Positions 4,351 through 50,106 are shown, numbered from the stretch's first letter. The stretch is DNA of 54,045 nt from a virus (IMGVR_UViG_3300032267_001096:1-54045); one strand, 5' to 3'. The notes: generated by a model from the sequence alone, not told the origin. Numbers and translations: made by a program.

Positions 4351-4362
4351 GTGTAAAACTTT

Positions 4363-18176: not shown

Positions 18177-18183
18177 ATTACAC
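18177..18183 (-). promoter_or_regulatory. GTGTAAT element, 8 bases before ATG
   Basis: On the minus strand GTGTAAT is followed by CATATAAT and then the ATG of the 86-residue gene. The same heptamer at the same distance precedes at least three other leftward genes. The preceding leftward gene has already terminated, so the copy is fully intergenic. Confidence 0.55.
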
Positions 18184-18188
18184 GTATT

Positions 18189-18959
18189 TTAATTATAATC
18201 CTCTATTTCTATTCTTCTATCTTCAAATCCTTTTAATTTTAAAGCATAAGCTAGTTTATTATCTATAATAGAGCTTTTGTATAAACTTTCTCCATTTTTG
18301 TTTAATAATTCTCTTTCAATGCATTTTTTATCTATATCATAAATATAAGATTTATATACTGATAACTTGTTTGTACGTGATTTAGGTTTTTTATCTAATC
18401 CAGTTACTATTAATTTATTTTGTTTGAATATTGAATTTACTCTAGTAATACTTTCAAAGTTAAATAAATCACTACTTATGGAATCTAATAAATCTTTATT
18501 TGAAAAATCTTCTATTAGAATAATTTTACCAATTTGATGCGCTAAAGAATAAATTTTATTATCTACTACACAGCCACTAAATATATTACTTTTTAAAATT
18601 GTAAAATCTTTTATTTTATCAAAATCTAAATCTGGCACCTCGTATTGAACTAAGTCATATTTTAAGCCCGCTTCAAATACCCCTTTTATATAAGTTAAAA
18701 AAAATTTACCATCTAATTCATATAAGCTAGGATTACATTCTATAATTGCTTCACTTCTATTTTTGGAACTAATTTTATTAAATGGAGTATTTATTTTTGA
18801 AATTCCTCCAGAATCTAAATCTTTAATAAAAATTTTCCAAGGTCTAGAGTATATGATTTTATCTTCTTGTTTAGATTGACAATGCAATAATTTTATTTTA
18901 TCAGCCTTTTTAAATAAAAAAGGTTGATGAGTATAAATTATATTATTGGTATCATTCAC
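18189..18959 (-). CDS. hypothetical protein, weak resemblance to glycosidase-type beta-propeller
   Basis: 256 residues with a GTG start; no in-frame ATG is available at the right place. The segment SEAIIECNPSLYELDGKFFLTYIKG (residues about 69-93) looks like a blade of a five-bladed GH43/GH32-type propeller, and later stretches (GCVVDNKIYSLAHQIGKIILIEDFS) repeat a strand-turn-strand rhythm. Acidic catalytic residues cannot be assigned, so I do not claim enzyme activity. It lies between the Cys-rich gene and the 86-residue gene. Possible role: a small virion-associated or host-surface protein. Confidence 0.6.
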   Translation of the reverse strand: MNDTNNIIYTHQPFLFKKADKIKLLHCQSKQEDKIIYSRPWKIFIKDLDSGGISKINTPFNKISSKNRSEAIIECNPSLYELDGKFFLTYIKGVFEAGLKYDLVQYEVPDLDFDKIKDFTILKSNIFSGCVVDNKIYSLAHQIGKIILIEDFSNKDLLDSISSDLFNFESITRVNSIFKQNKLIVTGLDKKPKSRTNKLSVYKSYIYDIDKKCIERELLNKNGESLYKSSIIDNKLAYALKLKGFEDRRIEIEDYN

Positions 18960-18988
18960 TTAAGCGATACTAAGTATTCGTCAACTTA

Positions 18989-19324
18989 TTACGTCTGCCC
19001 ACCCCATTGTCCGTAATATGGATAATCGCCAGAGCAATCGCACTTCGATGTGCACCCACAACATTCTTCTGGTTTGCTACACTCTGCGTCTGGGTTATAA
19101 CAATCATCACAACTATCGGTACAGCCACCCTGTTTGCATATATCGCACTCTGGTCCTTCTAATGTTGCTTCTGCATCATAATTACAAGCGCTAGAATCCA
19201 TACAACCACACTTTGCGCATTCATCACAAGCATCGCAACAACAAAATGTTTGCTTTATATTTGGATTGCATTTGCAATCTTCTGTACAAGGACACTCGTC
19301 TGATTCGTTTGGAACATTAGGCAT
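18989..19324 (-). CDS. extremely cysteine-rich protein with GCxDxxACNYD repeat motif
   Basis: 111 residues containing 23 cysteines (about one in five). Cysteines occur as CxC, CCC and CxxC clusters throughout. One segment, GCMDSSACNYDAEATLEGPEC, matches a repeat I know from surface proteins of marine bacteria and large viruses (GCTDxxACNYDxxA). GCTDSCDDCYNPDAEC looks like a degenerate second copy. Low hydrophobicity suggests a disulfide-knotted or metal-loaded particle protein rather than a globular enzyme. The end (YYGQWGGQT) is Gly/aromatic rich. The ATG has GTGTAAT eight bases upstream and an AAGG immediately before it. Function unknown. Confidence 0.75.
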   Translation of the reverse strand: MPNVPNESDECPCTEDCKCNPNIKQTFCCCDACDECAKCGCMDSSACNYDAEATLEGPECDICKQGGCTDSCDDCYNPDAECSKPEECCGCTSKCDCSGDYPYYGQWGGQT

Positions 19325-19332
19325 ACCTTACT

Positions 19333-19340
19333 ATTACACC
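19333..19340 (-). promoter_or_regulatory. GGTGTAAT element, 8 bases before ATG
   Basis: On the minus strand TTTTGGTGTAAT is followed by AGTAAGGT and the ATG of the Cys-rich gene. The copy is intergenic, lying after the stop codon of the 95-residue membrane protein gene. The spacing equals that of the copies at 18177, 20896 and 50099. Confidence 0.58.
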
Positions 19341-19345
19341 AAAAT

Positions 19346-19633
19346 TTAATCCTTAAATGGTATTAATTTTCTTCTTATAAATACTAAATTAATAAAAAAT
19401 CCAGAAAAAGCACTTAATACATTAGAAATATAATCTAAAGCATACTCTTGGAATGGATTTAAAAATAAAGTTAAAAATAAACAAATCCAAAAACTACTAC
19501 ATTCATGACAAAGTAACGGTTTCCTTATATAAGGTATTCTTGCTATAAAATTTCTAAAAGGTCTTGAAGCTTCTGTATCAGACCAAGCATAACTCGCTCC
19601 AAGGCAAACAAATAAATATAATAAAAATATCAT
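19346..19633 (-). CDS. small membrane protein with CxxCxSFW motif
   Basis: 95 residues with an N-terminal hydrophobic segment (MIFLLYLFVCLGASYAW), a central one (FWICLFLTLFLNPF) and a C-terminal one (LSAFSGFFINLVFI). Between the first two is KPLLCHECSSFW, a cysteine pair next to a Trp. This is the look of the DUF1360-type phage membrane proteins, although I cannot verify it. It begins immediately after the stop of the 136-residue gene. A holin-like or membrane-anchoring role is possible but not supported by any specific motif. Confidence 0.65.
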   Translation of the reverse strand: MIFLLYLFVCLGASYAWSDTEASRPFRNFIARIPYIRKPLLCHECSSFWICLFLTLFLNPFQEYALDYISNVLSAFSGFFINLVFIRRKLIPFKD

Positions 19634-20044: not shown

Positions 20045-20086
20045 ATATTATATTATATGTGAATATCCATATATTTCTATTATTTT

Positions 20087-20887
20087 TTAAGAATTTATAT
20101 ATCCTTGAAAATTCAAATCAAACTTGCCATATTCACTAACTGAGAAATTATAATTTTCATTAGAATAAATCATTTTATTTAAATTAAAACTTTTAATAAT
20201 TGCAGAATTATTAATATTTTTAAAATTAACCTGTAAGTCTCTAGTTTGTAGATTAGAAAAGAAATTATTAGGAGACGAGATAGACTCATCGCTTATCTCA
20301 AAATTAAACCTACAAGAAACCTCTATAGGGTATTCACTAGTTACTGCAGAAGGCATAAAATTACCGATTGTATATATTGGTAACTTTTTACAAGAATAAG
20401 ATATTCCACAATTGCTTACTCTATTTAAATTTGCTTCAGCTAAGTTAAAATCAATATAACAATAATTAATAGGCGAAATTTCATAATTAATAGCAGAATT
20501 ATTAGTATTTATACCAGTCAAATAGCTTAATTCTCCTAATACCCTACCTTGAACAGACACTTCTACTGGCCTATCAAGTTGAGCGTCTATAGAATAACTA
20601 TCTATAAAACCACTAGAAAAAAACAAATATTTATCACCATATTCAATTTTTCCTGTAAAAAAAGAATTACCAGTATAATCAATAAATGGTTCTGAAGTTC
20701 CAGGTATATAGTTTAAATTAAAATTAGCAATAATTGGTTGATTTATTATATAATTCATACCAGTATCAGATATAGCAAACGAAGGAGTTATATTAGTATC
20801 GTAATTTAAGCTTAAACTTTGTATACCAGATATAAAAGTATTATTTAAGTAAAATTTTTGATTTTGAATCTGAGAAACATTAAACAT
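20087..20887 (-). CDS. tail-tube-like protein, divergent paralogue of the major tail protein
   Basis: 266 residues, beta-rich. The stretch GISYSCKKLPIYTIGNFMPSAVTSEYPIEVSCRFNFEISD (about residues 159-198) aligns without gaps with TLNFDLARTPIEKLGSKF...REIDFPLTVNLSVDAQVTD of the major tail protein encoded at 38076-39191. Shared positions include the Pro-Ile, the Gly four positions later, the EY/DFP motif and the alternating strand. The N-terminal half (SLNYDTNITPSFAISDTG) also resembles a tube subunit. It is therefore probably a structural tail protein that caps or decorates the tube near the tip. It is transcribed away from the tip cassette from a shared divergent region that carries GTGTAA half-sites. 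Function is inferred from paralogy. Confidence 0.6.
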   Translation of the reverse strand: MFNVSQIQNQKFYLNNTFISGIQSLSLNYDTNITPSFAISDTGMNYIINQPIIANFNLNYIPGTSEPFIDYTGNSFFTGKIEYGDKYLFFSSGFIDSYSIDAQLDRPVEVSVQGRVLGELSYLTGINTNNSAINYEISPINYCYIDFNLAEANLNRVSNCGISYSCKKLPIYTIGNFMPSAVTSEYPIEVSCRFNFEISDESISSPNNFFSNLQTRDLQVNFKNINNSAIIKSFNLNKMIYSNENYNFSVSEYGKFDLNFQGYINS

Positions 20888-20895
20888 TAAATATA

Positions 20896-20919
20896 ATTAC
20901 ACCCTTTTTAAGTGTAAAT
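20896..20919. promoter_or_regulatory. divergent regulatory region: inverted GTGTAA half-sites
   Basis: Minus-strand GGTGTAAT (20896-20903) and plus-strand GTGTAAAT (20912-20919) face away from each other across a short T-rich spacer. Together they form an inverted repeat of the type AATTACACC-spacer-GTGTAAATT. The left half lies eight bases before the ATG of the tail-tube-like gene. The right half lies about 20 bases before the ATG of the M-like gene, which has GAGGTT in between as a possible ribosome site. This is the only head-to-head gene pair in the window. Confidence 0.6.
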
Positions 20920-20938
20920 TTATAGAGGTTAAAGGTAT

Positions 20939-21481
20939 ATGGCAAGCGTTTACGATACAATATCTGGTTGGAATGCAGGTACTAATTATAGTAAGTATAA
21001 TATTGTATCTGGATCTAATAGCAAATATTACTATTCTATAATAGATAATAATATTGGCGCAGGTAATAATCCTATGACTCCTGCTAATCTTCAACTAGAT
21101 TGGGATGGTTATAAATTAGTCAATTCTAATTATGTGCCAAACTTTTTTTGGCAACCATCTTATCAATCAAGCGTAAAAATTGAACCAAGAGTCAAAAAGA
21201 TTCAATTTGGAAATGGATACCAACAAAGAATCTTAGACGGTATAAATTCTGAACTTAAAAATTTAACTTTAACTTTTGAAAATAGATCAGAAATAGAAAC
21301 AGTTTCAATTTTACATTTCTTAGAAGAAAGAGCAGGACAGCAATCATTCGTTTATAATGTTCCAACAATTTACGCAAAACCTTCTGGAGTTAGTAAATTT
21401 ATTGCGCCTAATTGGGAAACAAACTATAATTTTTATAATAATTATACTATTAAAACAGTATTTGAACAAGTTCCAGATTAA
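20939..21481 (+). CDS. M: minor tail protein M-like with N-terminal chitin-binding-like module
   Basis: Lambda gpM homologue acting at the tail tip, needed to complete the tip complex. From about residue 66 the sequence follows the Phage_min_tail pattern: PRVKKIQFGNGYQQRILDGIN, then a beta-rich body with FLEERAGQQSF and TVFEQVPD at the end. Residues about 10-58 are extra. GWNAGTNYSKYNIVSGSNSKYYYSII with a later LDWDGY shows the Trp, Tyr and Asp spacing of CBM5/12-type carbohydrate-binding modules. The ATG has GAGGTT upstream and begins the plus-strand tip cassette. A similar module occurs in the adjacent L protein, so both may touch a glycan. Confidence 0.82.
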   Translation: MASVYDTISGWNAGTNYSKYNIVSGSNSKYYYSIIDNNIGAGNNPMTPANLQLDWDGYKLVNSNYVPNFFWQPSYQSSVKIEPRVKKIQFGNGYQQRILDGINSELKNLTLTFENRSEIETVSILHFLEERAGQQSFVYNVPTIYAKPSGVSKFIAPNWETNYNFYNNYTIKTVFEQVPD

Positions 21482-21486
21482 ACAAT

Positions 21487-22869
21487 ATGCCAACGTCTTT
21501 AGAAGTTTACAATCAAATAGTAAGTGGATACAAATCCATAAATACAGAAACAAGTAAATTAGAACCATCTGTACCAGTGATTTTTTATGAAATAGATTTA
21601 ACTCAAATTTATCCACAGATCAGAAACACTACCACTTTAACAAATCAACCATTGCAGAATGGTATTTTAAGAGTGTACAATGATTATAATTTATACAATT
21701 TATCAAACCAACCATACGGCACAATAACTTGGAAAAATAATAAATACTTTCCAATGCCTGTTCACGCAGATGGATTTGAAATGAATAGCGCTGGAACTCT
21801 TCCAACTCCAAGAATTTTTATTGCAAATAGTAGTCCAGATACTTCAACAAATTCTTTTTATAAATACATAAGATTACAAATTCAATCTTTAGGAGATATT
21901 GTTGGTGCAAAATTTACTAGAATTAAAACTTTTTTAAAATACTTAAATGGTGTTAATTTTTCTGGAGGATTTAATCCATATACAGATGATCCATCTATAT
22001 CTGAAATTGAATTACCAAAAGATATTTATTACATTGATCGAAAATCTCAAGAAGATAATTTAATTTTAGAATATTCTTTGGGTTCTATTTTAGATGTTGA
22101 AGGAGTATTTTTGCCTTCAAGAACAATTTTTTCTAATAAATGTCCATTTGAGTATAGAGGCGAAGGATGCTTGTACGAATATGATAGCAGAAGATCTATT
22201 GCTCATAGTGGAGTTTATGGAGGAGTTGTTAATTCGAATGTAGTTAACATAAGATTATTACAAACTGCACCACCAGTTGCAACAGAAAATGATCAGCTTT
22301 TCTTAGGATCATCTGGTTCAGTTTTTGTTACTGGAGTTAATACTTATGCAGTAAATAGGATTACTGGTGGAGCGGGCAATTTAGGAGCATGGAATACTGG
22401 GGTAGGCTATACAAGTGGAGATTTTATATTCCTACAAAATACAAGTAAATTAAATTATTATTTTGTATGTATTAATAATCATACATCTTCCTTAGAAAAT
22501 TCTCCACCTAATACAACATTTTGGCTAGCAGATTCTTGTTCAAAAAGTATTTCTTCATGTAGATCAAGATGGTTAAAAAATCCAGCTTTTAGACCAGTTA
22601 TTTGGCCAACTAATAGAGGAGGATGGGATTTAAATTACTACAAACTAGCAGATAGAGCCATGAGAACAGCTGCAGAAGCAACTAGCATATTAAGCCCACC
22701 AAGTTTCACTAATACAGGAATCAACTCTCCATTTCCAAGAAGACCAGCTTGTTTTAATCCAAATTCAGATCTTTCGCACGGAATACCAAAAGATTATTTA
22801 GGAAATTATTTAAATGGATTTCTTCCATTTGGGGGATTTCCAGGAACAGATCAACCGAACAATCAATAA
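21487..22869 (+). CDS. L: minor tail protein L-like with inserted chitin-binding-like module
   Basis: Lambda gpL homologue; in lambda the C-terminal domain carries a [4Fe-4S] cluster. Four cysteines are found here at 219 and 228 (CPFEYRGEGC) and at 351 and 358 (CSKSISSC). The spacings of 9 and 7 within pairs equal those of lambda. Between the pairs are 123 residues instead of 23. This insertion includes GAWNTGVGYTSGDFIFL...YYFVCINNHTSS...FWLAD, which looks like a CBM5/12 module. The distinctive NRGGWDLNYYKLAD end follows. It is 460 residues compared with 232 in lambda, and the remaining extra length is N-terminal and in loops. It overlaps the K-like gene by one base. Confidence 0.83.
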   Translation: MPTSLEVYNQIVSGYKSINTETSKLEPSVPVIFYEIDLTQIYPQIRNTTTLTNQPLQNGILRVYNDYNLYNLSNQPYGTITWKNNKYFPMPVHADGFEMNSAGTLPTPRIFIANSSPDTSTNSFYKYIRLQIQSLGDIVGAKFTRIKTFLKYLNGVNFSGGFNPYTDDPSISEIELPKDIYYIDRKSQEDNLILEYSLGSILDVEGVFLPSRTIFSNKCPFEYRGEGCLYEYDSRRSIAHSGVYGGVVNSNVVNIRLLQTAPPVATENDQLFLGSSGSVFVTGVNTYAVNRITGGAGNLGAWNTGVGYTSGDFIFLQNTSKLNYYFVCINNHTSSLENSPPNTTFWLADSCSKSISSCRSRWLKNPAFRPVIWPTNRGGWDLNYYKLADRAMRTAAEATSILSPPSFTNTGINSPFPRRPACFNPNSDLSHGIPKDYLGNYLNGFLPFGGFPGTDQPNNQ

Positions 22870-23594
22870 TGAATACTAAAATTAAAAATAAAATAAAAAA
22901 TCATGCTTTGGAGGAATCTCCTCAAGAATGTTGTGGTTTTGTTATTGAAAATGATGGAATTATAGATGTTTTAAGATGCAAAAATATATCCAAAGACCCA
23001 ATCAATAATTTTAAAATATCTGCTTTAGAATTCTTAAAAATAAAAAATTCATACAATCCACTTTATATTTATCATAGTCATTTAGATGAGGAAAATTTTT
23101 CTATGATGGATAAAAACTGCGCAGAAGAATCATCCATAGATTTAATACTATATATACTTAAAAGCGACACTTTCAAACATTACAGCTCTAATAATTCAGA
23201 AAGTTTAAAATATGTTGGAAGAAATATTAATTTTCAAAAAACAAATTGTTTTGATTTAGTAAAATTATATTATAAAAATGAATTTAATATAGATTTAAAA
23301 TTTCCAGAAAATTTTATATATGATCATATGCTAGAAGTAAATCAAGAAAATCTTGATCTAATATTAGAATATGCAAAAATAAATAATCTAGAAGTAGACT
23401 ACGCTGATAAATTTATAAATCACGATATATTGCTATTTAATAGTGATGGTTATTTTCATTTAGCTATTTATTTAGGAAATGATAAAATTTTAGAACAACC
23501 TAGAAATGGGTTTTCAAAAATAACAAATTACTGTAATTACTATAAGAGAAATAAAATAGCTAGACTTAGGAGATCAAAAAATGGTAACAGTTAA
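22869..23594 (+). CDS. K: tail protein K-like: JAMM plus NlpC/P60 peptidase
   Basis: Two-domain tail-tip protein expected to cut peptidoglycan or process tip proteins. The N-terminal JAB1/MPN (JAMM) domain has the metal-binding HSHLDEENFSMMD (His69, His71, Ser78, Asp81). The C-terminal NlpC/P60 domain has nucleophile Cys127 in TNCFDLVKLYY and His197 in YFHLAIYLGNDKILEQ. Length (241) is close to lambda gpK. All catalytic residues appear intact. The gene overlaps gpL by one base and the I-like gene by 14, as expected for a tail-tip operon. Confidence 0.88.
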   Translation: MNTKIKNKIKNHALEESPQECCGFVIENDGIIDVLRCKNISKDPINNFKISALEFLKIKNSYNPLYIYHSHLDEENFSMMDKNCAEESSIDLILYILKSDTFKHYSSNNSESLKYVGRNINFQKTNCFDLVKLYYKNEFNIDLKFPENFIYDHMLEVNQENLDLILEYAKINNLEVDYADKFINHDILLFNSDGYFHLAIYLGNDKILEQPRNGFSKITNYCNYYKRNKIARLRRSKNGNS

Positions 23595-24333
23595 TTTACA
23601 TGGCAGATTAGGAGAAGAGATAGGAGAGACATGGCGTTTAGATGTCACTTCTGTATCAGAAGCTATGAGAGCAATAGAAGCAAATACTAGAACCTTTAGA
23701 AAATGGCTACTAGATAACTCTAGAACAAAAGGTTATTCTTCATACGCAATACTTATAAACAATAAACCAGTAGAGATTAAAAATCAAGAAAATATAAATG
23801 AATTTAAAAATTCAGAAGTATTTATGGAATATGGAGAAAAACTTCAAACAATAGATCTTATACCAGAGGTAATTGGATCTCGTAGTGCTATATCATTTCT
23901 TGTTGCAACAGTTTTAATTATTGTCGCAGTTTTTGTTCCTCCATTAGCTCCAGTTTTAATATTAGGTGCAATTGGATTAATAGCTGCTGGTGTTACTAGT
24001 TTGTTGAGTAAACCACCACCACTTATTCCATATAATGCGCAACAAGCAGATCCTATAAGCACTTCTGCAGGAGAAGTTGGAGGTCCAAGTTCTTATCTTT
24101 TTAATGGCCCAGTAAATACAGTTGGCGAAGGAGGACCAGTCCCAGTAGGATATGGTACTTTATTAATTGGATCAAATAATGTATTTGCATCTTATGATAC
24201 TCAATATAAAACAGCTAGAAGAGGAGTTACTAACGCTGGAAATACAGTATCTTCTGGATCTTATACGTATTTATTTAATTCTAATTGTAGATTGATGGGT
24301 CAAAAACCAATAACAAACGAAATAAACTTCTAA
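23581..24333 (+). CDS. I: tail assembly protein I-like
   Basis: Lambda gpI homologue required for tail-tip assembly. The N-terminal half resembles a ubiquitin-like fold (VTVNLHGRLGEEIGETWRLDV). Two hydrophobic segments follow at about residues 104-143. The C-terminal signature is SYLFNGPVNTVGEGGPVPVGYG. Length is 250 compared with 223 in lambda. It is coupled to the K-like gene and followed after one base by the J-like gene. Confidence 0.85.
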   Translation: MVTVNLHGRLGEEIGETWRLDVTSVSEAMRAIEANTRTFRKWLLDNSRTKGYSSYAILINNKPVEIKNQENINEFKNSEVFMEYGEKLQTIDLIPEVIGSRSAISFLVATVLIIVAVFVPPLAPVLILGAIGLIAAGVTSLLSKPPPLIPYNAQQADPISTSAGEVGGPSSYLFNGPVNTVGEGGPVPVGYGTLLIGSNNVFASYDTQYKTARRGVTNAGNTVSSGSYTYLFNSNCRLMGQKPITNEINF

Positions 24334-24334
24334 T

Positions 24335-27300
24335 ATGGCAGGCGCAACAAATCTTAGTACAGAAGGATTAGAGTACCTTTGGAATCCAGGGAACGAAGGA
24401 TTAACTTTAGCTGGAATGAATTTTCCAGAAAGCGAATGCATAGATAGCGCTCCAGGAAATAATTCTTTTTCTTTTAGTGGTTATGATCCTTTTGGAAATC
24501 TTGATTTTTATTTTAATAATGCAATAAGTGGATATAAATCTTACTCTAGTCAAATCGTGACATTTGACGGCGCGCCTGGATGGATATACCAATTGGCAAA
24601 CACATCAATTGATTTAGTGGGTCCAGGAATTGCTTATCTTAGAGGTGCGCCAAATTTCAATAGCTTATATTCAATTGTTTATGGCGGAGCCACCGACCCA
24701 GGAGGTTATGGTAGATCTACTTTAATGTATGGTAATTCTGGAGATCTTGGCGTAACTAGTATAAATAAAATAGGAGTATTAGATTTAATTTGTGAAGGCC
24801 CGATAGAAGGTTTTATAACAGGAACTTATTTTTATGATTATTCTGGGAAAAATACTGGAGATATTGGATATACTTCGGCTACTTTTATACCATTTAGTAA
24901 TTCTGGTTTTTATGGTGGATCAGAAGACGGAAACCAATATCTTGAATCTCCACCAGAATCTCGCTCAATTTTTTGGAATGATATTCCAATTGTTCAAAAA
25001 AATGGATTATATAATTTTAAATCAGTAAACTATAAATATAGTATAGGAGATCCTAATCTACATACTCAAATGAATCCAATAATAAATTTATTCGAAGATA
25101 GATATAGTTATTTTGGAAATCAAATAGATAAATTTAAATATCCCCTTGTAACTTCAAGAACAAAAACAATAAACGAAAGACTTTTTGGAGCAATTATAAC
25201 TACTGGCGTTACCGATGTTGGATTTCCTAAATCTTATAGCGTATATAATACCGATGTTTCTTCTATAAAATTAAATATTAAAATCAATGGATTAAGTCAA
25301 ACAATTGTTGCTGTTGGGGCTGGAAATCAAGGAGATGTTTATAAAGAAAATCTTAAAATTAATTTTTTATTATTTAGGCTCTTTAAAGATGGCAGTACTG
25401 CATTGGTAGACGCTTCTCAGTATTATCCATACAAAAGTCAATATTATTTTAACTCAAGCATTTTATTAAGAGGAAAAATAAGTAGTCCAATGTTGACTTG
25501 TTATGAAATGTCTGTTAGACCATTTGCAGAAAATTTTCCATCTTTTCAAATTATGCAAAATCAAATCGGTTGGTCTGTTACAGTTACAAAAATAACTCAA
25601 GAAGGTTTACCTCCAGGAATAACAAATTCCTGTTCTGTAGACAGTATAACAGAAGTTTATAGCGACAAATTTGTTTATCCCAATGTTGCAATGGTTTATA
25701 ATGAATTTGATTCTAGATATTTTAATAGCGTTCCAACAAGAAGCTATAAAATGAGATTATTAAAAGTTAAAATTCCAAATAATTATGATCCAATTACTAG
25801 AAATTATAATGGTTTTTGGGATGGTAGATTTAAATTAGCATGGACAGATAATCCTGCTTGGTGTTACTATGATTTAATTACAAATAATAGATATGGATTA
25901 GGTAAATACATTGATTCATCTTTAGTCGATAAATGGAATCTTTATGAAATCGCACAATATTGCGATCAATTAGTTCCAGATGGTAAGGGTGGATTAGAGC
26001 CAAGATTTACATGTAATCTGCTGATCTCAGCAAAAGATGAAGCTTATAAAGTTTTAAATGATATGGCTTCAATATTTAGAGGAATAACTTATTATTCTGC
26101 TGGATTAGTTTTTGCAAATCAAGATAGACCCAAAAATATTATTTATTCATTTAATAACGCAAATGTTGTAGATGGTAAATTTACATATTCTGATAGTTCA
26201 AGAAGAGTTAGAAAAACCGTAGCAACTATCAGATATAACAATGAAGATGATAATTATAAACCAGCAATAGAATATGTAGAGTATAGACCTGGAATATTAA
26301 AATATGGAATAAGAGAAATTTCAGTTACTGCATTTGGTTGCACAAACCAAAACCAAGCAAGAAGATTAGGAAAATGGTATTTAATTACAGAAAATTTAGA
26401 AACTGAAACGGTAGTTTTTGATGCAGGATTAGAAGCTGGATATCTTATCCCAGGAGATTTAGTTCAAATTTATGATCAAAATAGAAGAAATGTAAATTTT
26501 GCTGGTAGAACAAAAGAATTGTCTACAGGATCTGCAACTCTTGATTTACCTTATAATACTGGAGTATTAAATAATTTAACTGGATTTAAAAGTAATTTTG
26601 ATATTTATTTCTTAACTCCTACTTATAATTTAAATTATGGAACAGACTTAGGAAATGATTATATAACTGGCTATAATATAACCTCAAGTGGTGCAACAGG
26701 ATTGAACTCTGATTTCTTTAGAAGAAGTGCTGTTCAAAGAATGACAATACCGTTGCCAACTCAAAGTTATATAACAAGAGGAACTGGAGTTTATTCGGAT
26801 AACATTAGAATAAATTTTCCTTCTGGTTTAAATGGATCAGGATACAGTTTATTACAAAATACTGTATGGAATATAGATGTAAATATTAATGGATATACTG
26901 GCATAGATATCAGATCTCCAATTAATAATCCTTCTAATTTAACATATCCAGGAGCATTATATGATGGATATTTAAATGAACCACAAATTTATAGAATTTT
27001 AAATGTAAAAGAAGATCCAGAAAATAAAACATATAATGTATCAGCTATGCAGTATGTACCAGCAAAATATGGAGAAATAGATTTAGATGCTCAATTAACA
27101 AATGTACCTAATAAACCTCTAGTTCCTGGCGCACCAAGAGTAATTTTGAGTGGTTTATATAGAGATGCAATAGGTAATTTAACAGGGTCAAATAGATTAT
27201 TATATCAAGGAGTTCAAAGTGCAATTGGAATTAATAGCGTAGCTTATTCTACATCTCCATCTACAAATGGTTCTTATGTTAGTCAATATTTAGTTTATAT

Positions 27301-27586
27301 GAGAACTGGTACAGCTTTTACCAGCTTAACAAATGATCAAACAGACTTAATAGACATACAACCAGCTAATGTTAATACTGGATTTTATCCGACAGATCCA
27401 GTTAATGGAAGAGATTTAGGATTATACCCTCCATACTTTACTCCTCAATACGCTGGAACTTTTTTCTTCAAAATTTACGCACAAAATTCATTAAATGAAG
27501 TATCAGCCCCAACTTTAGGCTCTTTCACTTTGACCAGTCAAGCTCCCTTAGATAGAGTTAATGCTTCTGGAATTAACGTATTATGA
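24335..27586 (+). CDS. J: tip attachment protein J-like host-recognition protein
   Basis: Central fibre/receptor-binding protein of the tail tip, 1083 residues compared with 1132 in lambda. The core shows GVLDLICEGPIEGF near 148-161, then LAWTDNPAWCYYDLITNNRYGLGKYI, EIAQYCDQLVPDGKGG, a helix with LNDMASIFRG and YNNEDDNYKPA (positions about 505-650), all hallmarks of gpJ. The C-terminal part has a fibronectin type III-like domain (PGAPRVILSGLY... FFFKIYAQNSLNEVSAPT). It reads through to four bases inside the next gene. Receptor specificity in lambda lies at the C-terminus. Here the fibre and adhesin genes at the right of the window may share that job. Confidence 0.88.
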   Translation: MAGATNLSTEGLEYLWNPGNEGLTLAGMNFPESECIDSAPGNNSFSFSGYDPFGNLDFYFNNAISGYKSYSSQIVTFDGAPGWIYQLANTSIDLVGPGIAYLRGAPNFNSLYSIVYGGATDPGGYGRSTLMYGNSGDLGVTSINKIGVLDLICEGPIEGFITGTYFYDYSGKNTGDIGYTSATFIPFSNSGFYGGSEDGNQYLESPPESRSIFWNDIPIVQKNGLYNFKSVNYKYSIGDPNLHTQMNPIINLFEDRYSYFGNQIDKFKYPLVTSRTKTINERLFGAIITTGVTDVGFPKSYSVYNTDVSSIKLNIKINGLSQTIVAVGAGNQGDVYKENLKINFLLFRLFKDGSTALVDASQYYPYKSQYYFNSSILLRGKISSPMLTCYEMSVRPFAENFPSFQIMQNQIGWSVTVTKITQEGLPPGITNSCSVDSITEVYSDKFVYPNVAMVYNEFDSRYFNSVPTRSYKMRLLKVKIPNNYDPITRNYNGFWDGRFKLAWTDNPAWCYYDLITNNRYGLGKYIDSSLVDKWNLYEIAQYCDQLVPDGKGGLEPRFTCNLLISAKDEAYKVLNDMASIFRGITYYSAGLVFANQDRPKNIIYSFNNANVVDGKFTYSDSSRRVRKTVATIRYNNEDDNYKPAIEYVEYRPGILKYGIREISVTAFGCTNQNQARRLGKWYLITENLETETVVFDAGLEAGYLIPGDLVQIYDQNRRNVNFAGRTKELSTGSATLDLPYNTGVLNNLTGFKSNFDIYFLTPTYNLNYGTDLGNDYITGYNITSSGATGLNSDFFRRSAVQRMTIPLPTQSYITRGTGVYSDNIRINFPSGLNGSGYSLLQNTVWNIDVNINGYTGIDIRSPINNPSNLTYPGALYDGYLNEPQIYRILNVKEDPENKTYNVSAMQYVPAKYGEIDLDAQLTNVPNKPLVPGAPRVILSGLYRDAIGNLTGSNRLLYQGVQSAIGINSVAYSTSPSTNGSYVSQYLVYMRTGTAFTSLTNDQTDLIDIQPANVNTGFYPTDPVNGRDLGLYPPYFTPQYAGTFFFKIYAQNSLNEVSAPTLGSFTLTSQAPLDRVNASGINVL

Positions 27587-29019
27587 AACTCTTAGCTAAA
27601 AACTTAGATTTAAAATTAAGTTGGGAATTATCCTCAGCTCTTCCAGCATTATACGCTAATGAATTAGTACCAATTAAATATTTCCCTAATTTTAATGTAG
27701 ATATTCGTGACGAAGAAAATAACCTCTTAGAAAGTTTTAAAAATATTGATTCAAAAAAAGAAGTAGAAAAATACATCGTATCAAATGAAATCCTATATCC
27801 ACCCAAAGAATCTATAGAGGGCACAAGAACTCATAGAAATCTTCAATCAGAAAAAAATATTCAAAAAGTTTTAGAAAATTATTTCGAATATCCTTTTCTT
27901 TCTAATTATAAAAAGTATAAACAAATAAAAAATAAAATAGGATTTTTTGATAAATTAAAATTTGATATCACCTTTAACTCAAAAGAACTTTCTTATTTAA
28001 ACTTTGAAATAGATTACCCAAAACTTAATACTTTAAAAATAGATTCTATTTTTAATAAGATTTATAGGAGTAATGATTATTATTCAATTAAATTTTTAAT
28101 AAATACAGAGAATTGGAATGAAAGTCAAGCCTATTCATTACTAATATTTCCTTCTTATAAAGATACTAAATTAAATACAATTTTAATAGAAAATGTAAGC
28201 ACTTTATGGCTTAACTCTATAGATGCATTAAAACTATTAACTGTTCCATTTGTTGAAACTGGATTAGTCGAAAATTTAAACTCTTTAGATCTTAAAATAT
28301 ATGTTTTGAATAAAATTCAATCAGACTTATACAAATTCCTTGGTGATTTTGAACTTCCAGAAGATATAGAAAACTTTTTTTCAAGCACTTATCCTGACCA
28401 AATTATAAATGTTTCTTTGAATCAAAATAATAATAAAAATGGATTCTTTCAAGGAAGTTTATATTCATTTAATGATGAAAACTTTAATACATTATCTTGG
28501 CCTAAAGACGAATTATTAATTAATAATTTAAATTATAAGAATTACTTTCCAATTGCTAGTTATAATAATAAAGAGACTATCTTAATCGAAGGTCAGCCAA
28601 TCAATAATAATATATTATCTATATTTAATTCTGAAGATATAGAATCAAATCAAGTAGGATTATATTATAATAATATATATGAATCATGCGCTCAAGATAT
28701 ACCATTCTTTAATTTTTCAAATTTAAATAATATAGAAATTATTGAAGTTAAAAACTTCAATGGCAATATTCAAATATTTTTAGAAGCAACAACTAATATA
28801 GAAAACATAGAAAACATACATGTAGAAAGCTCTTCTAATTTAATACTACAAAATAAATACTTAAAAAATATAAATGGCAAAGCTTATACTGCTATATTAT
28901 TTTTATACGAATATTCAAAATTAAAAGTAACAAATAAATCTTTAGAAAATACTTTACAAGTAGATCAAATAATTTATAAAAAAGCACCAATTAGTTTTTC
29001 TTGGAAAATTATAAATTAA
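27583..29019 (+). CDS. hypothetical tail-tip-associated protein
   Basis: 478 residues, rich in Asn, Ile, Leu and Lys, mixed strand and helix, with no recognised domain. It overlaps the J-like gene by four bases (ATGA) and is the last gene of the tip cassette, in the place where lambda carries bor/lom or fibre genes. Its stop codon overlaps the stop of the oppositely transcribed tape measure gene in a TTAA palindrome. No signal peptide. It may be a fibre-attachment or accessory tip protein. Confidence 0.6.
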   Translation: MKLLAKNLDLKLSWELSSALPALYANELVPIKYFPNFNVDIRDEENNLLESFKNIDSKKEVEKYIVSNEILYPPKESIEGTRTHRNLQSEKNIQKVLENYFEYPFLSNYKKYKQIKNKIGFFDKLKFDITFNSKELSYLNFEIDYPKLNTLKIDSIFNKIYRSNDYYSIKFLINTENWNESQAYSLLIFPSYKDTKLNTILIENVSTLWLNSIDALKLLTVPFVETGLVENLNSLDLKIYVLNKIQSDLYKFLGDFELPEDIENFFSSTYPDQIINVSLNQNNNKNGFFQGSLYSFNDENFNTLSWPKDELLINNLNYKNYFPIASYNNKETILIEGQPINNNILSIFNSEDIESNQVGLYYNNIYESCAQDIPFFNFSNLNNIEIIEVKNFNGNIQIFLEATTNIENIENIHVESSSNLILQNKYLKNINGKAYTAILFLYEYSKLKVTNKSLENTLQVDQIIYKKAPISFSWKIIN

Positions 29020-35716: not shown

Positions 35717-35723
35717 ATTACAC
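35717..35723 (-). promoter_or_regulatory. GTGTAAT element upstream of tape measure gene
   Basis: On the minus strand TTTGTGTAATATATTG is followed by TAAAGGAATAAGGC and the ATG of the tape measure gene, 23 bases after the element. AAGG-type ribosome-binding sequences lie between, unlike the copies eight bases from a start codon. The upstream gene has already ended. Confidence 0.5.
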
Positions 35724-38013: not shown

Positions 38014-38020
38014 TTTACAC
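38014..38020 (-). promoter_or_regulatory. GTGTAAA element after terminator
   Basis: Minus-strand TTTTTTTGTGTAAATCC directly follows the T-tract of the terminator. It lies 34 bases before the ATG of the first chaperone-region gene, with an AAAGGA ribosome site between. A weaker copy (last base A). Its juxtaposition with a terminator suggests that transcription restarts here. Confidence 0.45.
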
Positions 38021-38053
38021 AAAAAAATAACCCCCGAGAACGGGGGTTATTTT
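38021..38053 (-). terminator. rho-independent terminator behind major tail protein gene
   Basis: A 13-bp perfect stem with CCCCCG/CGGGGG at its tip and a 4-base loop, flanked by a run of seven T on the minus strand. The GC-rich core stands out in this AT-rich genome. Read leftward it terminates the major tail protein transcript. It would also work weakly rightward but nothing lies in that orientation. Confidence 0.93.
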
Positions 38054-38075
38054 AATTTAATAATTTAATTATTTA

Positions 38076-39191: not shown

Positions 39192-39215
39192 TTGATTTGT
39201 TCTCCATTTTCTGTT

Positions 39216-39223: not shown

Positions 39224-39248
39224 TATTTTTTAACTTTTTTTCTAATTT

Positions 39249-40112: not shown

Positions 40113-40113
40113 G

Positions 40114-41144: not shown

Positions 41145-41149
41145 AATTA

Positions 41150-41659: not shown

Positions 41660-41668
41660 ATAATACAA

Positions 41669-41676
41669 ATTACACC
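41669..41676 (-). promoter_or_regulatory. GGTGTAAT element, 9 bases before ATG
   Basis: Minus-strand CAGGTGTAAT is followed by TTGTATTAT and the ATG of the connector-like gene. It is intergenic, between the fibre gene stop at 41698 and this ATG. Confidence 0.57.
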
Positions 41677-41697
41677 TGAGAATATTTTTTTTATCTA

Positions 41698-44571: not shown

Positions 44572-44589
44572 ATATTATTATATACACAA

Positions 44590-44597
44590 ATTACACC
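44590..44597 (-). promoter_or_regulatory. GGTGTAAT element overlapping a stop codon
   Basis: Minus-strand TTGGTGTAAT, whose TAA is the stop codon of the upstream GT9 gene (Leu-Val-stop). The fibre ATG lies 18 bases away. A second copy-like GTGTATA lies nine bases before the ATG and includes TATAAT. Confidence 0.5.
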
Positions 44598-45460
44598 AAA
44601 TTTTTGATTAATAAATCTTTATTATAGATTTTATTAATATCTATATCGCATTGATGAGGTAAACCTACAAATTCTTTCTCTAGTATAATCCCATCTATTT
44701 TATGAGTAAAAACTCTTGACTCTTCTAATGGCCCAAGGTTATTATGTATATTGTATCCTAATTTTTCTGGCGAAGTAGCGACCCAACATACTGTAGATGG
44801 AAGCATAAGTGCTGCAGCTGCGTGTTGAGCAAAGGAATCAATCAATAATCTTTTATTAGATAAATTCAAAAAACAAAATATTTCTCGCCAATTTGCATTT
44901 AATTTTTCTGTATTTTTTAACTGTATTTGATCATCTCTTCTTAAATGAAAAATATGATACTTTTCTTTAAGTTCATCAATAACTTCTTGAACTATATCTG
45001 TATTTAAATCTCTAGCCCAATTGTAGTTAGATTGATTTTCTGCTCCGCCATTAGTTTGTAAGGCTAAAATTGGTTTGTCTCTATTGTATTTTTTATATGC
45101 ATCAATTAGTTCTATTTGAGTTAAAAATAATCTAGGATTTTCTCCAGTATATTTTAGTCCAAACATATTGCACCAAGATTCAATCAAATGCTTATTTGAC
45201 GTAACGTACTCATTGCTCTGATAAACTTCGTTTCCTAAAAAGATAGCGTCTTTATTTTTGATAAAATCTTCATAAAAATACTGAGCCGTATTTGATCTAT
45301 AAACTCTGTAAATAAATGGATTATTAAGAAAGACCTCTGGATAAGGACATATTACTATTAATTTTCTATCTGGATAATTTTTACTAATATTTTCGGCTAC
45401 AGCAGTTGCGGCTATATGCTTGCCCATACCACCTTGAAGAAAGAAAATTACTGTTTTCAA
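44591..45460 (-). CDS. GT9-family (heptosyltransferase-like) glycosyltransferase
   Basis: About 290 residues. KTVIFFLQGGMGKHIAATAVAE is the N-terminal GT9 start (compare ...LGGLGDxxxxTP). LIVICPYPEVFLNNPFIYRVYR is the next strand-helix, and residues from SNYNWARDL through FHLRRDD and LIDSFAQHAAAALMLPSTVCWVATSP (about 136-235) are the donor half. The TTG at 45460 gives the natural family start. A TTG ten codons upstream is also open. It stands alone inside the fibre/adhesin region, unlike the plus-strand transferases, and might glycosylate a fibre. It is not obviously fused to anything else. Confidence 0.82.
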   Translation of the reverse strand: MKTVIFFLQGGMGKHIAATAVAENISKNYPDRKLIVICPYPEVFLNNPFIYRVYRSNTAQYFYEDFIKNKDAIFLGNEVYQSNEYVTSNKHLIESWCNMFGLKYTGENPRLFLTQIELIDAYKKYNRDKPILALQTNGGAENQSNYNWARDLNTDIVQEVIDELKEKYHIFHLRRDDQIQLKNTEKLNANWREIFCFLNLSNKRLLIDSFAQHAAAALMLPSTVCWVATSPEKLGYNIHNNLGPLEESRVFTHKIDGIILEKEFVGLPHQCDIDINKIYNKDLLIKNLV

Positions 45461-45520
45461 CTTATTTATTATATTATAATACCATAACAATATCTATTAA
45501 TTGTTACTCAAAATATAATA

Positions 45521-45760: not shown

Positions 45761-45767
45761 AATGTAT

Positions 45768-45774
45768 GTTACAC
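45768..45774 (-). promoter_or_regulatory. GTGTAAC element sharing a stop codon, 7 bases before ATG
   Basis: Minus-strand GAGTGTAAC: the TAA is the stop codon of the propeller gene (Gly-Val-stop), and ATACATT separates it from the ATG of the 79-residue gene. A slightly degenerate copy. Confidence 0.45.
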
Positions 45775-48700
45775 TCCAAATCCTTTAAAATTTTTATCAA
45801 TTTTACCATTATAATCCATTGCAGCAATAGAACATCGAAAATCTGGATTTTTCATATTAGAAAATTGTCCATGAAAAAATATTTTGTCTGCATTAAAAGA
45901 TGCGTCATATAAAAACAATCCAGCGCTGCTTGAAGATGTGCTATTATTTGAATCGTTCTGATATGAGGATGGATCTGAATCTATTGTAAAATCAAAATTA
46001 CCAATATTTACTCCTGTTACTTTATCTTTTAAAGTAATAAAATAATTTCCAGGAGATGCAGAATTTAATTGTCTATATTCTGTCATATCGCCAAACTCAC
46101 CCCCAGCAATTAACATGTCTCCAGTGCTTTGTATGCTCCAAATTTGACCAGGATTAGCATCTCCTTGAGCAAAAGGTGGTCTTGATCTAAAAACGCTATC
46201 CTCTCCTATTCCTCCGTAATTTCTTATTATGTTTCCATTAGTAGGATTAACAAGAAATACTCCTCTAGGACTCACAGTGTCTCCAGAACCTCCTACAGAT
46301 AGAATATCTCCACCTATAAATAAACCACTAGGATGCATATGGAGCGCACTTACTCCATCAGTTGCTGTTACATTTCGAGGTCCATACCACACAGTTGAAG
46401 GAATACTGTATCCTGATAATGTTCTAAACGCAGTCAAATGCGCAGCAGTATTTGTATCAAAAGCTGCTATGCTTAGATAAACATTATTTGCAAAAGATCC
46501 AACTTGACTAAATGTTCCTCCAGCATATAAAGTATTTCCTGAAATTAAAAGTTTTCTAACTCCACCATTTAAAATAAGCGGATTATAAGATTCAAGCGCT
46601 CCTCCTGAAGCCGATGAAACATCAAACCTACAAACCCTATTTCTACTCAATCCACTCATTGTCCCAAAATCGCCACCAACAAAAAGCTTATCTCCACTAA
46701 ATTGAAAATCATAAACTGTGCTAGGCGAATTAGGGTTCCAACCGTCAAGAGTATTTGTATCTAAATTTATTCTTGCTATACGATTTCTTGCTGTAGCTAA
46801 CACAGATGTAAATTCTCCACCTAGATAAAGAAAATTATCTTTTCTTTTAATTGCCCATACGTTACCATTAACATTATAATCTAATCCAGAAATTCTTTGA
46901 TTATCTAAATCAAACCAAGCAACACGATTTCTTGTAACAGTAGAATTAACATTTGTGCTAGGAGACATATTTTGAACGCTAGTAAAGCTTCCTCCCATAT
47001 ACATTTTTCCAGATTCTAAAAATGTAGATAAAACATTACCACCGCCTCGGATACAAAGTGGAGCATTATCTCTGTTATTAACAAATCCAGTAACTATATG
47101 CCCAGAAACTAAATTATATCTAATTTGATTTCCAGGTGTTTGACCACCTGCAAGTCCAACATTTTGAGGCATAGAAGCGGTAAAGGTTCTTCCGTGCGCA
47201 TATAAAATATTATTATATATTTCTGTTGTATATACTCCTCCGAATGGATTGGTCATTAAATTAATATTTCGTTTTAAAAGATTTCCACTTTGTATGCTAA
47301 AAAATGCTAATCCAGCTCTTCTTTCTCCAGCATTAGAAAAACTACCACATATTACTACTCCAGATGGAGTAACTCTAAGATTTGTTGGCTCTTTAGATAA
47401 TTCTGGATCCCATTGTAGCAAACCTGTATTATTTAAATTTATAGCTGCACCATAATTTCTTTCTTGTCCTAATACCGATCTAAATCCACCGCCAATATAT
47501 AAAGTATTTGTGGATGTATCTATATCCATAGCTTTTACTTCGCCTCGGTCAAGATTTAAATTAAAATCTGTTATTGTATTGTTTTGTATATCTAAACAGA
47601 AAATTCCAAATCTGTTATTGCCACTTACCACATCAAAACTTCCTCCAACATAAAGAAGATTATCTTTTCTTTTCATGCAAGAGACTTTGGCGTTAGCATT
47701 ATTGCTTGTTTTATTAGAATTCATACCAAGTAAAGTATTATTAATTTCAAAGTTAAATCCATGGGTTGGAGTATTAGTATTTATGTTTAGTCCTATGAAA
47801 TGATGATATCTAGTAGGTATACCTCCAAGAGTAAAGTTTCCACCTAAAAATAATGTATTTCCACTTTTTTCAATAGCCATAACGTCAAAATTTGTTCCAA
47901 GATCAATATTTAAATTTGTTGTTAATCCTCCACTGATTGTATCAACAATAGCTATAGAATTTCTGATTGTAGAAGGATTATTAGGTTCATTTACAGTATT
48001 AAATCTTCCACCAATAGTTATAGTATTATCTCCTGTGTCAAGATGCATGCAATATACTCCTTGTGCGTTATTATTAATAGAATATGCGCTAGTAGGAGCA
48101 TTTATCATTTGAAGATTTGGATTCCATTGTGTTATTCTATTTGTATTAAGATCAACTGCAAAAGCATTATTTCTGGGAACTTTTTGTATAAAAGCTCCAG
48201 CTTGTTTACCAAGAATATATATTTTATCATCTATTTTTTTACATACATTAAAACCTGCATCAGCAGATTGGTCTCCTTGATATACGTTTGTGCCACCAAA
48301 TCCATAACCTAAACCAGTATAAGTGGTTAAACCACTAATATTATCTATTACCACAGGGAAAGTTATTGGGTTATGATAATTAGGAATCAAAGGACCATTT
48401 CCTGGTTGATTGTCTCTGTATGTCCAAGTTCGATTGCTACTTGTATCTATATTTATAATAACTTTATCACCAAATTCAGCAATGCTTCCATAAGTATTAG
48501 ATCCAAAATTAAATTTTGGTCTGAAACCTGTGATTAATAGTCCACTTTCATAATCAACTTTGCAGATACTTGAATAATCTCCAGCTATTCCGCCGATACT
48601 AAAAAATGATCCTGCTAAATATAGACCACTTACTCCAGTTGCCATTTGCCTGATTGTAGTATTAGCATTAGGGTTAAATGGTAATAAACTCATATCTGGA

Positions 48701-49644
48701 AAAGTTATTGCTGCTATTTGATTTCTAGATACTCCACTAAAAGTTGTAAAACCGCCTTTAATATAAATTCTATTTCCAGATTTTATTATTTGCTGTATGT
48801 TTCCATTTGGGCCATTCGCTGTAGATAATCCAGTAATATATTTTCCACTTACGTAGTCTAAACATACTAAACGATTACAGGCTACTCCTGCTGCAGTTGT
48901 AAATTGGCCAGCAACCCAAATTCCAGTTTTATTAGGATAAAAATCTCCTGTATCTGCAAAGTAATCTATAATTGTTCCGTTTGTGCTAGTACCATTAGCA
49001 AAATTTTGAGTCCAATCTCTATCTGCAATTAAAGCCCACTTAAAATTATTCGCAGCATTTTGTAACATATTAAATTTCATAAGGCCTTGGTTATATAAAC
49101 CAAAACCATAATTTGCAGCATTAAATACTCCATTACCCGTAAACATATTTAGATTATTTCCAGCATGTATAAAAAATATTCCAGAACCAATCTGTTTTAT
49201 ATTTCTTATATTATTTCCACCTCCAACACTTACTCCAAGTCCAGTATTTAAACCTGACGGAGTAATTTGTAAAAATGATTGTTTGCCTCCTAAATTATTT
49301 ACTGGGGCTGGAGAAATACTTCCATCTGGCGATGGCATTTGAATAAGACCGTTTGTTGAACTAAAAGAGCCAACTAAATATCTATTTCCATATTGATCTG
49401 TTGTAGTATCACTTACTCCTACGCTATTTCTATCTCCAGCTATTCTGACATCTATTTCTGGAGGATAAACATTAAGCCCAGTATCTAGTATAGCATAACC
49501 AGGATAAACTTTGCAAAGTGAATTAAAAGAACCTCCAACATATAAAATATTATCTTTTATAGCAGAAGCATAAATTCCACCATTTGGATATAAAAGATTA
49601 TCTGTTGTGGTGTTTTTATCTAAATTTGAAAATGGAAAAAACAT
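45769..49644 (-). CDS. giant beta-propeller (DUF5122-like) tail or fibre protein
   Basis: 1291 residues made almost entirely of repeats of about 50-70 residues. Each starts with a motif like LYVGGSFxxVxGxxRNxIAxID. Examples are LYLGGEFTSVLATARNRIARINL, LFVGGDFGTMSGLSRNRVCRFDV, IYIKGGFTTFSGVSRNQIAAI and LYIGGGFRSVLGQERNYGAAINL. I count about eighteen clear or degenerate copies. This is the delta-60/DUF5122 beta-propeller type, predicted to form two or more stacked propellers. There is no signal peptide or membrane anchor and no catalytic motif. It sits amid fibre and adhesin genes with five bases between it and the 146-residue gene, so it is probably a virion adhesin. Confidence 0.83.
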   Translation of the reverse strand: MFFPFSNLDKNTTTDNLLYPNGGIYASAIKDNILYVGGSFNSLCKVYPGYAILDTGLNVYPPEIDVRIAGDRNSVGVSDTTTDQYGNRYLVGSFSSTNGLIQMPSPDGSISPAPVNNLGGKQSFLQITPSGLNTGLGVSVGGGNNIRNIKQIGSGIFFIHAGNNLNMFTGNGVFNAANYGFGLYNQGLMKFNMLQNAANNFKWALIADRDWTQNFANGTSTNGTIIDYFADTGDFYPNKTGIWVAGQFTTAAGVACNRLVCLDYVSGKYITGLSTANGPNGNIQQIIKSGNRIYIKGGFTTFSGVSRNQIAAITFPDMSLLPFNPNANTTIRQMATGVSGLYLAGSFFSIGGIAGDYSSICKVDYESGLLITGFRPKFNFGSNTYGSIAEFGDKVIINIDTSSNRTWTYRDNQPGNGPLIPNYHNPITFPVVIDNISGLTTYTGLGYGFGGTNVYQGDQSADAGFNVCKKIDDKIYILGKQAGAFIQKVPRNNAFAVDLNTNRITQWNPNLQMINAPTSAYSINNNAQGVYCMHLDTGDNTITIGGRFNTVNEPNNPSTIRNSIAIVDTISGGLTTNLNIDLGTNFDVMAIEKSGNTLFLGGNFTLGGIPTRYHHFIGLNINTNTPTHGFNFEINNTLLGMNSNKTSNNANAKVSCMKRKDNLLYVGGSFDVVSGNNRFGIFCLDIQNNTITDFNLNLDRGEVKAMDIDTSTNTLYIGGGFRSVLGQERNYGAAINLNNTGLLQWDPELSKEPTNLRVTPSGVVICGSFSNAGERRAGLAFFSIQSGNLLKRNINLMTNPFGGVYTTEIYNNILYAHGRTFTASMPQNVGLAGGQTPGNQIRYNLVSGHIVTGFVNNRDNAPLCIRGGGNVLSTFLESGKMYMGGSFTSVQNMSPSTNVNSTVTRNRVAWFDLDNQRISGLDYNVNGNVWAIKRKDNFLYLGGEFTSVLATARNRIARINLDTNTLDGWNPNSPSTVYDFQFSGDKLFVGGDFGTMSGLSRNRVCRFDVSSASGGALESYNPLILNGGVRKLLISGNTLYAGGTFSQVGSFANNVYLSIAAFDTNTAAHLTAFRTLSGYSIPSTVWYGPRNVTATDGVSALHMHPSGLFIGGDILSVGGSGDTVSPRGVFLVNPTNGNIIRNYGGIGEDSVFRSRPPFAQGDANPGQIWSIQSTGDMLIAGGEFGDMTEYRQLNSASPGNYFITLKDKVTGVNIGNFDFTIDSDPSSYQNDSNNSTSSSSAGLFLYDASFNADKIFFHGQFSNMKNPDFRCSIAAMDYNGKIDKNFKGFGV
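45780..49640 (-). repeat. beta-propeller repeat array
   Basis: Coding repeat containing about eighteen copies of the GG[S/E/D]F-type unit. Units are diverged in DNA sequence but retain Gly-Gly, Phe, a small-residue loop, Arg-Asn and Ile-Ala/Leu. Boundaries are approximate. Confidence 0.65.
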
Positions 49645-49649
49645 AATCT

Positions 49650-50090
49650 TTAATTAATAAAGTCTTTGACATAAGTTGAATAAAAGTTTGAATCTATTTT
49701 AAGAGCTGTATATATATCTGCTTTGCTTGGTGTGAATGTCAAAGAGGGACTAACACCTCCTGGAAATTTATAAGCAGCATCAAATATCATATTATTGCTT
49801 CCACTTGGACTTTGTTTTATTTTTATTACAATATTTTCTCCATTAAACATATTAATTGGTGCATTCAAAGTAGCACTTGCGCCCGCGAGTCCAGTTAAAG
49901 CATATTCAAAAGTTCTTGCAACACTAGAGTCTGGAGTAAAATTATTTCCAGTAAAATATACTATATTCTTTTGATAATAAACTTCTTTTCCGCTAATTAA
50001 TAAAGCTCCATTCATGGAGTCTCCAGCGGTATTGACATATCTAATGTCTGCATCTGTTTGATTAATGAAAATTGGATTGTTTAATTGCAT
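49650..50090 (-). CDS. small tail fibre protein
   Basis: 146 residues. The N-terminal NQTDADIRYVNTAGDSMNGALLISG has the ADxRYVNxxGDxMxGxLxI pattern found repeatedly in phage tail fibres. The rest is beta-rich with GGVSPSLTFTPSKADIYTALKI. No catalytic motif. A GGTGTAAT element lies eight bases before its ATG. The five LamG-like genes lie upstream. Confidence 0.72.
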   Translation of the reverse strand: MQLNNPIFINQTDADIRYVNTAGDSMNGALLISGKEVYYQKNIVYFTGNNFTPDSSVARTFEYALTGLAGASATLNAPINMFNGENIVIKIKQSPSGSNNMIFDAAYKFPGGVSPSLTFTPSKADIYTALKIDSNFYSTYVKDFIN

Positions 50091-50098
50091 ATAAGTAT

Positions 50099-50106
50099 AT
50101 TACACC
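50099..50106 (-). promoter_or_regulatory. GGTGTAAT element, 8 bases before ATG
   Basis: Minus-strand AACAAGGTGTAAT is followed by ATACTTAT and the ATG of the small fibre protein gene. It lies within the short gap after the stop codon of the last LamG-like gene. Confidence 0.57.

Follow-up and report, generated by a model that had tools for sequence, protein, structure and literature searches.

GTGTAAT, a predicted one-part and often leaderless late promoter of an uncultivated phage group

The window and its copies of GTGTAAT

IMGVR_UViG_3300032267_001096:1-54045 (the window, meaning the whole stretch of DNA analysed here) is an entire IMG/VR record of 54,045 bases, linear and about 30% GC, and represents part of a tailed phage genome. 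Its plus strand encodes replication proteins (a DnaB-type helicase, ThyX, a primase and a Pol III-type polymerase with exonuclease) and a lambda-like tail operon, M-L-K-I-J (20939-29019); the minus strand encodes the tape measure and other structural proteins; and no tRNA was found in a search of the window. The subject of this report is a short element, GTGTAAT, that stands ahead of genes in the window and its relatives and was examined by computation. A first-pass annotation had listed ten minus-strand copies, all of which proved to be present at the claimed places and spacings; the list was incomplete, since two plus-strand sense copies (4351-4357 and 20912-20918) had been overlooked. The copies in intergenic gaps, and one adjoining terminator, are as follows.

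4351..4357, plus strand: GTGTAAA ahead of a 90-aa gene at 4363, replication region; 14/15 orthologues
18177..18183, minus strand: GTGTAAT 8 nt ahead of ATG 18168; predicted leaderless late promoter
19333..19339, minus strand: GTGTAAT 8 nt ahead of ATG 19324; predicted leaderless late promoter; orthogroup 3/3, same spacing
20896..20902, minus strand: GTGTAAT 8 nt ahead of ATG 20887; minus half of a divergent promoter pair
20912..20918, plus strand: GTGTAAA ahead of ATG 20939, with GAGGT ribosome site; tail operon 20939-29019; plus half of the divergent pair; 12/13 orthologues
35717..35723, minus strand: GTGTAAT 23 nt ahead of the tape measure gene at 35693, AAGGA ribosome site between; 6/6 orthologues
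38014..38020, minus strand: GTGTAAA right after the T run of a terminator; predicted promoter of the 37997/37979 gene; copy in 14/16 orthologues
38021..38048, minus strand: intrinsic terminator AACCCCCGTTCTCGGGGGTTATTTTTTT, its end adjoining GTGTAAA
39216..39222, minus strand: GTGTAAT 24 nt ahead of ATG 39191, GGAG ribosome site between; 12/15 orthologues
41669..41675, minus strand: GTGTAAT 9 nt ahead of ATG 41659; 15/16 orthologues
44590..44596, minus strand: GTGTAAT 18 nt ahead of ATG 44571 (957-aa protein); TAA is the stop of 44591-45490; 3/3 orthologues, same spacing
45768..45774, minus strand: GTGTAAC 7 nt ahead of ATG 45760; TAA is the stop of 45769-49644
50099..50105, minus strand: GTGTAAT 8 nt ahead of ATG 50090

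Intergenic gaps make up 595 of the 54,045 bases (1.1%), and 12 of the 13 copies of GTGTAA and all eight copies of GTGTAAT lie in or across them (binomial probabilities 4e-23 and 2e-16, respectively). The 12 gap copies of GTGTAA are all sense-oriented ahead of a gene; when the gaps were shuffled, a mean of 0.28 copies fell in gaps and none of 2000 shuffles reached 11. The density within genes is near zero, not equal to that of the gaps. The supposed excess of the heptamer over chance was not borne out: GTGTAAW occurs 12 times against 15.2 expected, so that the raw genome-wide count, being at chance level in the window, was rejected as evidence, and it is the placement that is non-random. The statement that the heptamer falls in nearly every substantial gap holds for nine of the 12 gaps that measure 12 nt or more in the 18-50.1 kb region; the other three (18960-18988, 20045-20086 and 45491-45520) are free of it. 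As first described, the TAA doubles as the stop codon of the upstream gene in two cases, the copies at 44590 and 45768. A G ahead of GTGTAAT was considered as part of the motif, six copies in the window reading GGTGTAAT, yet relatives have G at this position in only 20%, and the extension was rejected.

Conservation in related phages

Related contigs were gathered via three proteins and their whole records retrieved, giving three contig sets, in which genes were called with a simple program taking the longest open reading frame (ORF), the 60 nt ahead of starts were scored, and all 6-mers were ranked by enrichment. GTGTAA is the top enriched upstream 6-mer in each set: 50 of 66 copies are upstream in the near relatives (1.8 expected), 219 of 341 in the polymerase relatives (11 expected) and 42 of 97 in a more distant set of higher GC content (3.3 expected). 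It also ranks first in most single genomes. Among the relatives, G006 is near (DNA 92% identical to the window at 18.8-45.7 kb), and G015 (171.9 kb) is probably near complete, since its ends carry an exact repeat of 357 bases.

Orthologous gaps retain the motif, and orthologous genes hold it at constant distance; for the gene at 20887, 12 of 12 orthologues keep it at the identical spacing of 9 nt. Further upstream, diverged pairs share about 31-50% identity in their flanks; the 100% identity within the motif in this comparison is an artefact of choosing motif-containing sites. Because sites in orthologues are not independent, raw counts overstate the evidence and figures per orthogroup are safer.

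The same script recovered TATAAATA (as TATAAAT/ATAAATA) from the T4 late region, a positive control in which GTGTAA was upstream in 0 of 14 copies, and returned TAAATAG/ATAAATA from Pelagibacter phage HTVC008M, with GTGTAA at 3 of 42. It missed tAATGTAtA, which has few sites, in phiEco32, a further positive control, and thus picks up abundant motifs only. Upstream GTGTAA was not found in a Leptospira phage that is a distant relative in one protein, and a literature search for the motif sequence turned up nothing relevant. The motif-bearing phages are a widespread, uncultivated and mainly AT-rich group. Two members of the more distant set, G003 and G004 (L018-L024), have a second upstream element, AGTGTCCT, with TTGAAGTG; AGTGTCCT stands before genes in 8 of 9 copies.

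A one-part element and two promoter classes

Alignment of 276 sites yields a logo of GTGTAA followed by T (69%), with A/T-rich flanks and no second conserved block, -35 element or other fixed-distance element up to 50 nt upstream, in agreement with the earlier remark that no TTGACA box precedes the motif. The gaps of the relatives that are free of the motif have a different character: TTGACA occurs there 86 times where 6.2 would be expected, and a TATAAT-like box tends to follow it after a spacer of 17. TTGACA with a near-consensus TATAAT is found in 10% of motif-free gaps; only 0.3% of the 314 motif regions in relatives have the boxes of a sigma-70 promoter, TTGACA and TATAAT with about 17 nt between them. 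Because genes without the motif carry TTGACA-N17-TATAAT, the two promoter classes are nearly exclusive. The window contains two conserved examples of the contrasting class:

4640..4668, plus strand: TTGACT-N17-TATCAT ahead of the DnaB-type helicase gene at 4679; 14/15 orthologues
17074..17102, plus strand: TTGACA-N17-TATCAT ahead of the gene at 17109; 16/16 orthologues

Genes for UvdE, adenylosuccinate synthetase and DNA ligase are among the conserved members of the TTGACA class. The motif class includes tail and tape measure genes and also those of ribonucleotide reductase beta and PhoH, and is therefore not purely structural; its gene content (tail, tape measure and structural genes) suggests late expression. 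Sense placement, fixed spacing in orthologues, the lack of a second element and the near-exclusion of TTGACA/TATAAT together support the initial proposal of a single-element late promoter. A terminator preceding the motif was rejected as a general feature: terminators are rare ahead of it (6 of 314), no commoner than in other gaps, and so only single cases lend support.

Spacing and leaderless starts

The distance between GTGTAA and the start codon is distributed bimodally, with 188 genes at 6-12 nt (the close class), 79 genes at 21-45 nt (the distant class) and a sharp peak at 8-9 nt (126 of 314 genes). A Shine-Dalgarno core of 4 nt precedes 6% of the close genes versus 82% of the distant ones, or 9% versus 76% when counted per orthogroup. 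The start codons of the 80 close-class orthogroups are ATG in 74, GTG in six and TTG in none; TTG starts 49 of the 214 orthogroups that have neither motif nor Shine-Dalgarno sequence. These close-class starts do not appear to be miscalled, because codons 2-12 vary mostly at the third position and an internal start with a Shine-Dalgarno sequence occurs within 20 codons in only 3%.

In mycobacteria, leaderless mRNAs need ATG or GTG as the start (PMC4633059). Both the split in Shine-Dalgarno use between the two spacing classes and the lack of TTG in the close class are what transcripts starting at the start codon would lead one to expect. In phiEco32, transcription starts 6-8 bp beyond the element (PMC8948821), and the T4 late element ends at -6 (PMC1524935); by the same geometry, RNA of the close class would start at the start codon or 0-2 nt before it. 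The suggestion that genes close to the element have leaderless messengers is thus strengthened, as far as sequence can speak to it, by Shine-Dalgarno sequences that appear only where the spacing allows them.

A candidate sigma factor in relatives

A sigma-like gene was sought in the window, where none was found, but such genes are present in relatives, among them G006, which encodes at 52613-53299 a protein of 228 aa that matches the Pfam Sigma70_r2 model with 28.5 bits (cut-off 24). The predicted fold has helices as in sigma regions 2 and 4, which a Cys-rich stretch separates, region 4 being known from the predicted fold alone; the named Foldseek neighbours, from the Protein Data Bank and a viral library, are nearly all sigma factors, with no E-value below 0.001. 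The gene is carried by the relatives G006, G014, G015, G028, G030 and G037, and IMG/VR holds 193 viral stretches that encode relatives of the protein; a tblastn search of 50,697 phage records at E 1e-5 gave no match. Distant matches in three genome assemblies, including Flavobacteriales and Halobacteriovorax, are too few to name a host.

Contigs fetched solely by this protein provide a separate count of the motif: in the 80 contigs kept from the 193 stretches, GTGTAA is the top upstream 6-mer (340 versus 18 expected) and is present in 77. Beside diverged sigmas from genome assemblies, it ranks first next to a 56%-identical protein and second next to a 46%-identical one. In the contig with the most diverged sigma (L286, 44% identical), almost no GTGTAA is seen and GTGTAT is upstream in 3 of 5 copies, possibly a change of specificity.

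Directly before the sigma gene, 64 of 65 loci have a zinc-ribbon-like ORF of about 140 aa. This protein (for example, L203 3029-3466) has an acidic middle and a lysine-rich end, and could be a co-activator. A TATAAT-like box precedes the operon in most cases, and 63 of 64 loci have no GTGTAA there, as expected for a factor made ahead of the late genes. Five loci (L208, L209, L211, L216 and L218) share a conserved TTAGATTAAAT box upstream of TATAAT, replacing TTGACA, which is perhaps a middle promoter.

Proposed mechanism and alternatives

We consider it probable, at about three chances in four, that GTGTAAT serves a large phage group as a one-part late promoter, which is read by the phage-encoded 228-aa sigma and is often leaderless. 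In the proposed scheme, host RNA polymerase would begin with the early genes, using their conventional TTGACA-N17-TATAAT promoters; the small phage sigma and its putative zinc-ribbon partner would come from a single early or middle operon; and the sigma would redirect host polymerase to GTGTAAT, the core (-10-like) element of the late promoter, with RNA beginning about 6-8 nt past it. A start codon at that distance would yield a leaderless messenger (a leader of 0-2 nt) with no Shine-Dalgarno sequence, and one about 21-45 nt away a short leader with a Shine-Dalgarno sequence. The phage-encoded sigma of the relatives fits the earlier proposal that a phage or alternative sigma factor reads the motif.

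Several points weigh against this assignment. The structural model of the sigma is moderate (pLDDT 70.6), its best Foldseek E-value being 0.0056 at a TM-score of about 0.27; it has a region-4-like domain though no -35 element is seen; and the window, which is a fragment, lacks the gene. A contig with a 44%-identical sigma is without the motif, and G028, whose sigma is 65% identical, has weaker enrichment of GTGTAA (9 of 23 versus 0.8 expected). The joint occurrence of sigma and motif in common contigs may merely reflect shared ancestry. Finally, relatives have a second sigma-like family (class ii, about 200 aa, regions 2 and 4; L288 5001-5627 and 20 other loci) that could read the motif; none was found in the window by these searches.

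It is accordingly conceivable, if unlikely, that the single-element late promoter is read by the class ii protein, or by a host alternative sigma, instead of the 228-aa protein. Class ii is present in at least eight motif-carrying relatives, and the phage contigs are fragments, so presence or absence cannot separate the two sigmas; against this, the motif is enriched in contigs fetched solely via the 228-aa protein, down to 46% identity, and G006, the nearest relative with that protein, yielded no class ii gene across its 74 kb. The association of the motif with this phage group would not be accounted for by a host sigma alone.

That GTGTAAT acts in translation, as an unusual ribosome-binding element, seems very improbable. 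Its usual place about 8 nt before ATG is that of a Shine-Dalgarno sequence, so that the main peak would fit a ribosome site, and the close genes have no Shine-Dalgarno sequence of their own; but a fourth of the copies lie at 21-45 nt, with an ordinary Shine-Dalgarno sequence after them, just 2% of the genes overlapping their predecessor have the motif, though all need translation, motif-free gaps bear promoter boxes instead, and one copy comes directly after a terminator. An operator for a repressor or activator, or an RNA processing site, both named at the outset as alternatives, fit less well than a promoter and are, if anything, slightly less probable still: two copies at 20896-20918 do form an inverted repeat, TTACAC-N9-GTGTAA, but the remaining copies in the window occur singly, have a direction and keep a fixed distance to starts, an operator would have no other promoter to control because consensus host-type boxes are missing from motif regions, and a processing site leaves that absence unexplained.

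Comparison with known systems

The predicted GTGTAAT promoter most resembles systems in which a phage factor recognizes one short element. The middle and late promoters of phiEco32 are read by a phage sigma, gp36, with host polymerase through a single short element, tAATGTAtA, with starts 6-8 bp downstream (PMC8948821). The phages described here differ in consensus, in having far more sites per genome and in their sigma, which has 228 aa, a Cys-rich stretch and an end resembling region 4; for phiEco32 the lack of a -35 was linked to the lack of a region 4 (PMC8948821), which seems not to apply here. The T4 late promoters served by gp55, gp33 and gp45 likewise consist of a short one-part element, at -13 to -6, used by a phage sigma at a fixed start distance (PMC1524935). 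Their consensus is TATAAATA, unlike GTGTAAT; a bacterial-type clamp (PF02767) was not found in six relatives; and the present phages differ in their lambda-like tails and Pol III-type polymerase, and most of their motif genes appear to be leaderless.

The late promoters of AR9 (AACA-N6-TA/G) are also short motifs at a fixed distance upstream of late starts, used by a phage multisubunit RNA polymerase (PMC5312081), whereas a phage RNA polymerase beta subunit was not found in six relatives in a search with a positive control. The profile for single-subunit RNA polymerase (PF00940) had no match, but its control gave none either. Mycobacterial leaderless genes share the absence of Shine-Dalgarno sequences and the restriction to ATG and GTG starts (PMC4633059); they are host-wide, whereas the pattern here belongs to a single phage promoter class whose spacing is bimodal.

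Relative to the known phage sigma and one-part late promoter systems, this one has a new consensus, a sigma family that tblastn did not match in the phage records covered, and a spacing from which leaderless late genes are predicted to be widespread. The tie between promoter spacing and missing Shine-Dalgarno sequences suggests large-scale leaderless translation by a phage, which to our knowledge has rarely been documented. The result is a testable regulatory code for a large uncultivated phage group, specifying its late genes, probable switch protein and transcript starts. A more tentative idea, for which we see a minority chance, is that a dedicated promoter serves most late genes and that its distance from the start codon has been tuned to make most of the late transcriptome leaderless; if so, a phage sigma switch would be coupled late in infection to a switch in the mode of translation, to initiation free of Shine-Dalgarno sequences.

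Other features of the window

A tandem array of five genes, each of about 230-270 aa, lies on the minus strand at 50111-53937. They share the ending KxTxGKGLxLP, the first pair being 29% identical; their stop and start codons overlap, and they resemble repeated tail-fibre or adhesin modules. Sugar-nucleotide genes lie beside the replication genes on the plus strand (119-3928), including an epimerase at 2924 and a gene at 119 whose first residues resemble GDP-mannose dehydratase, and glycosyltransferases are encoded at 13989 and 15911.

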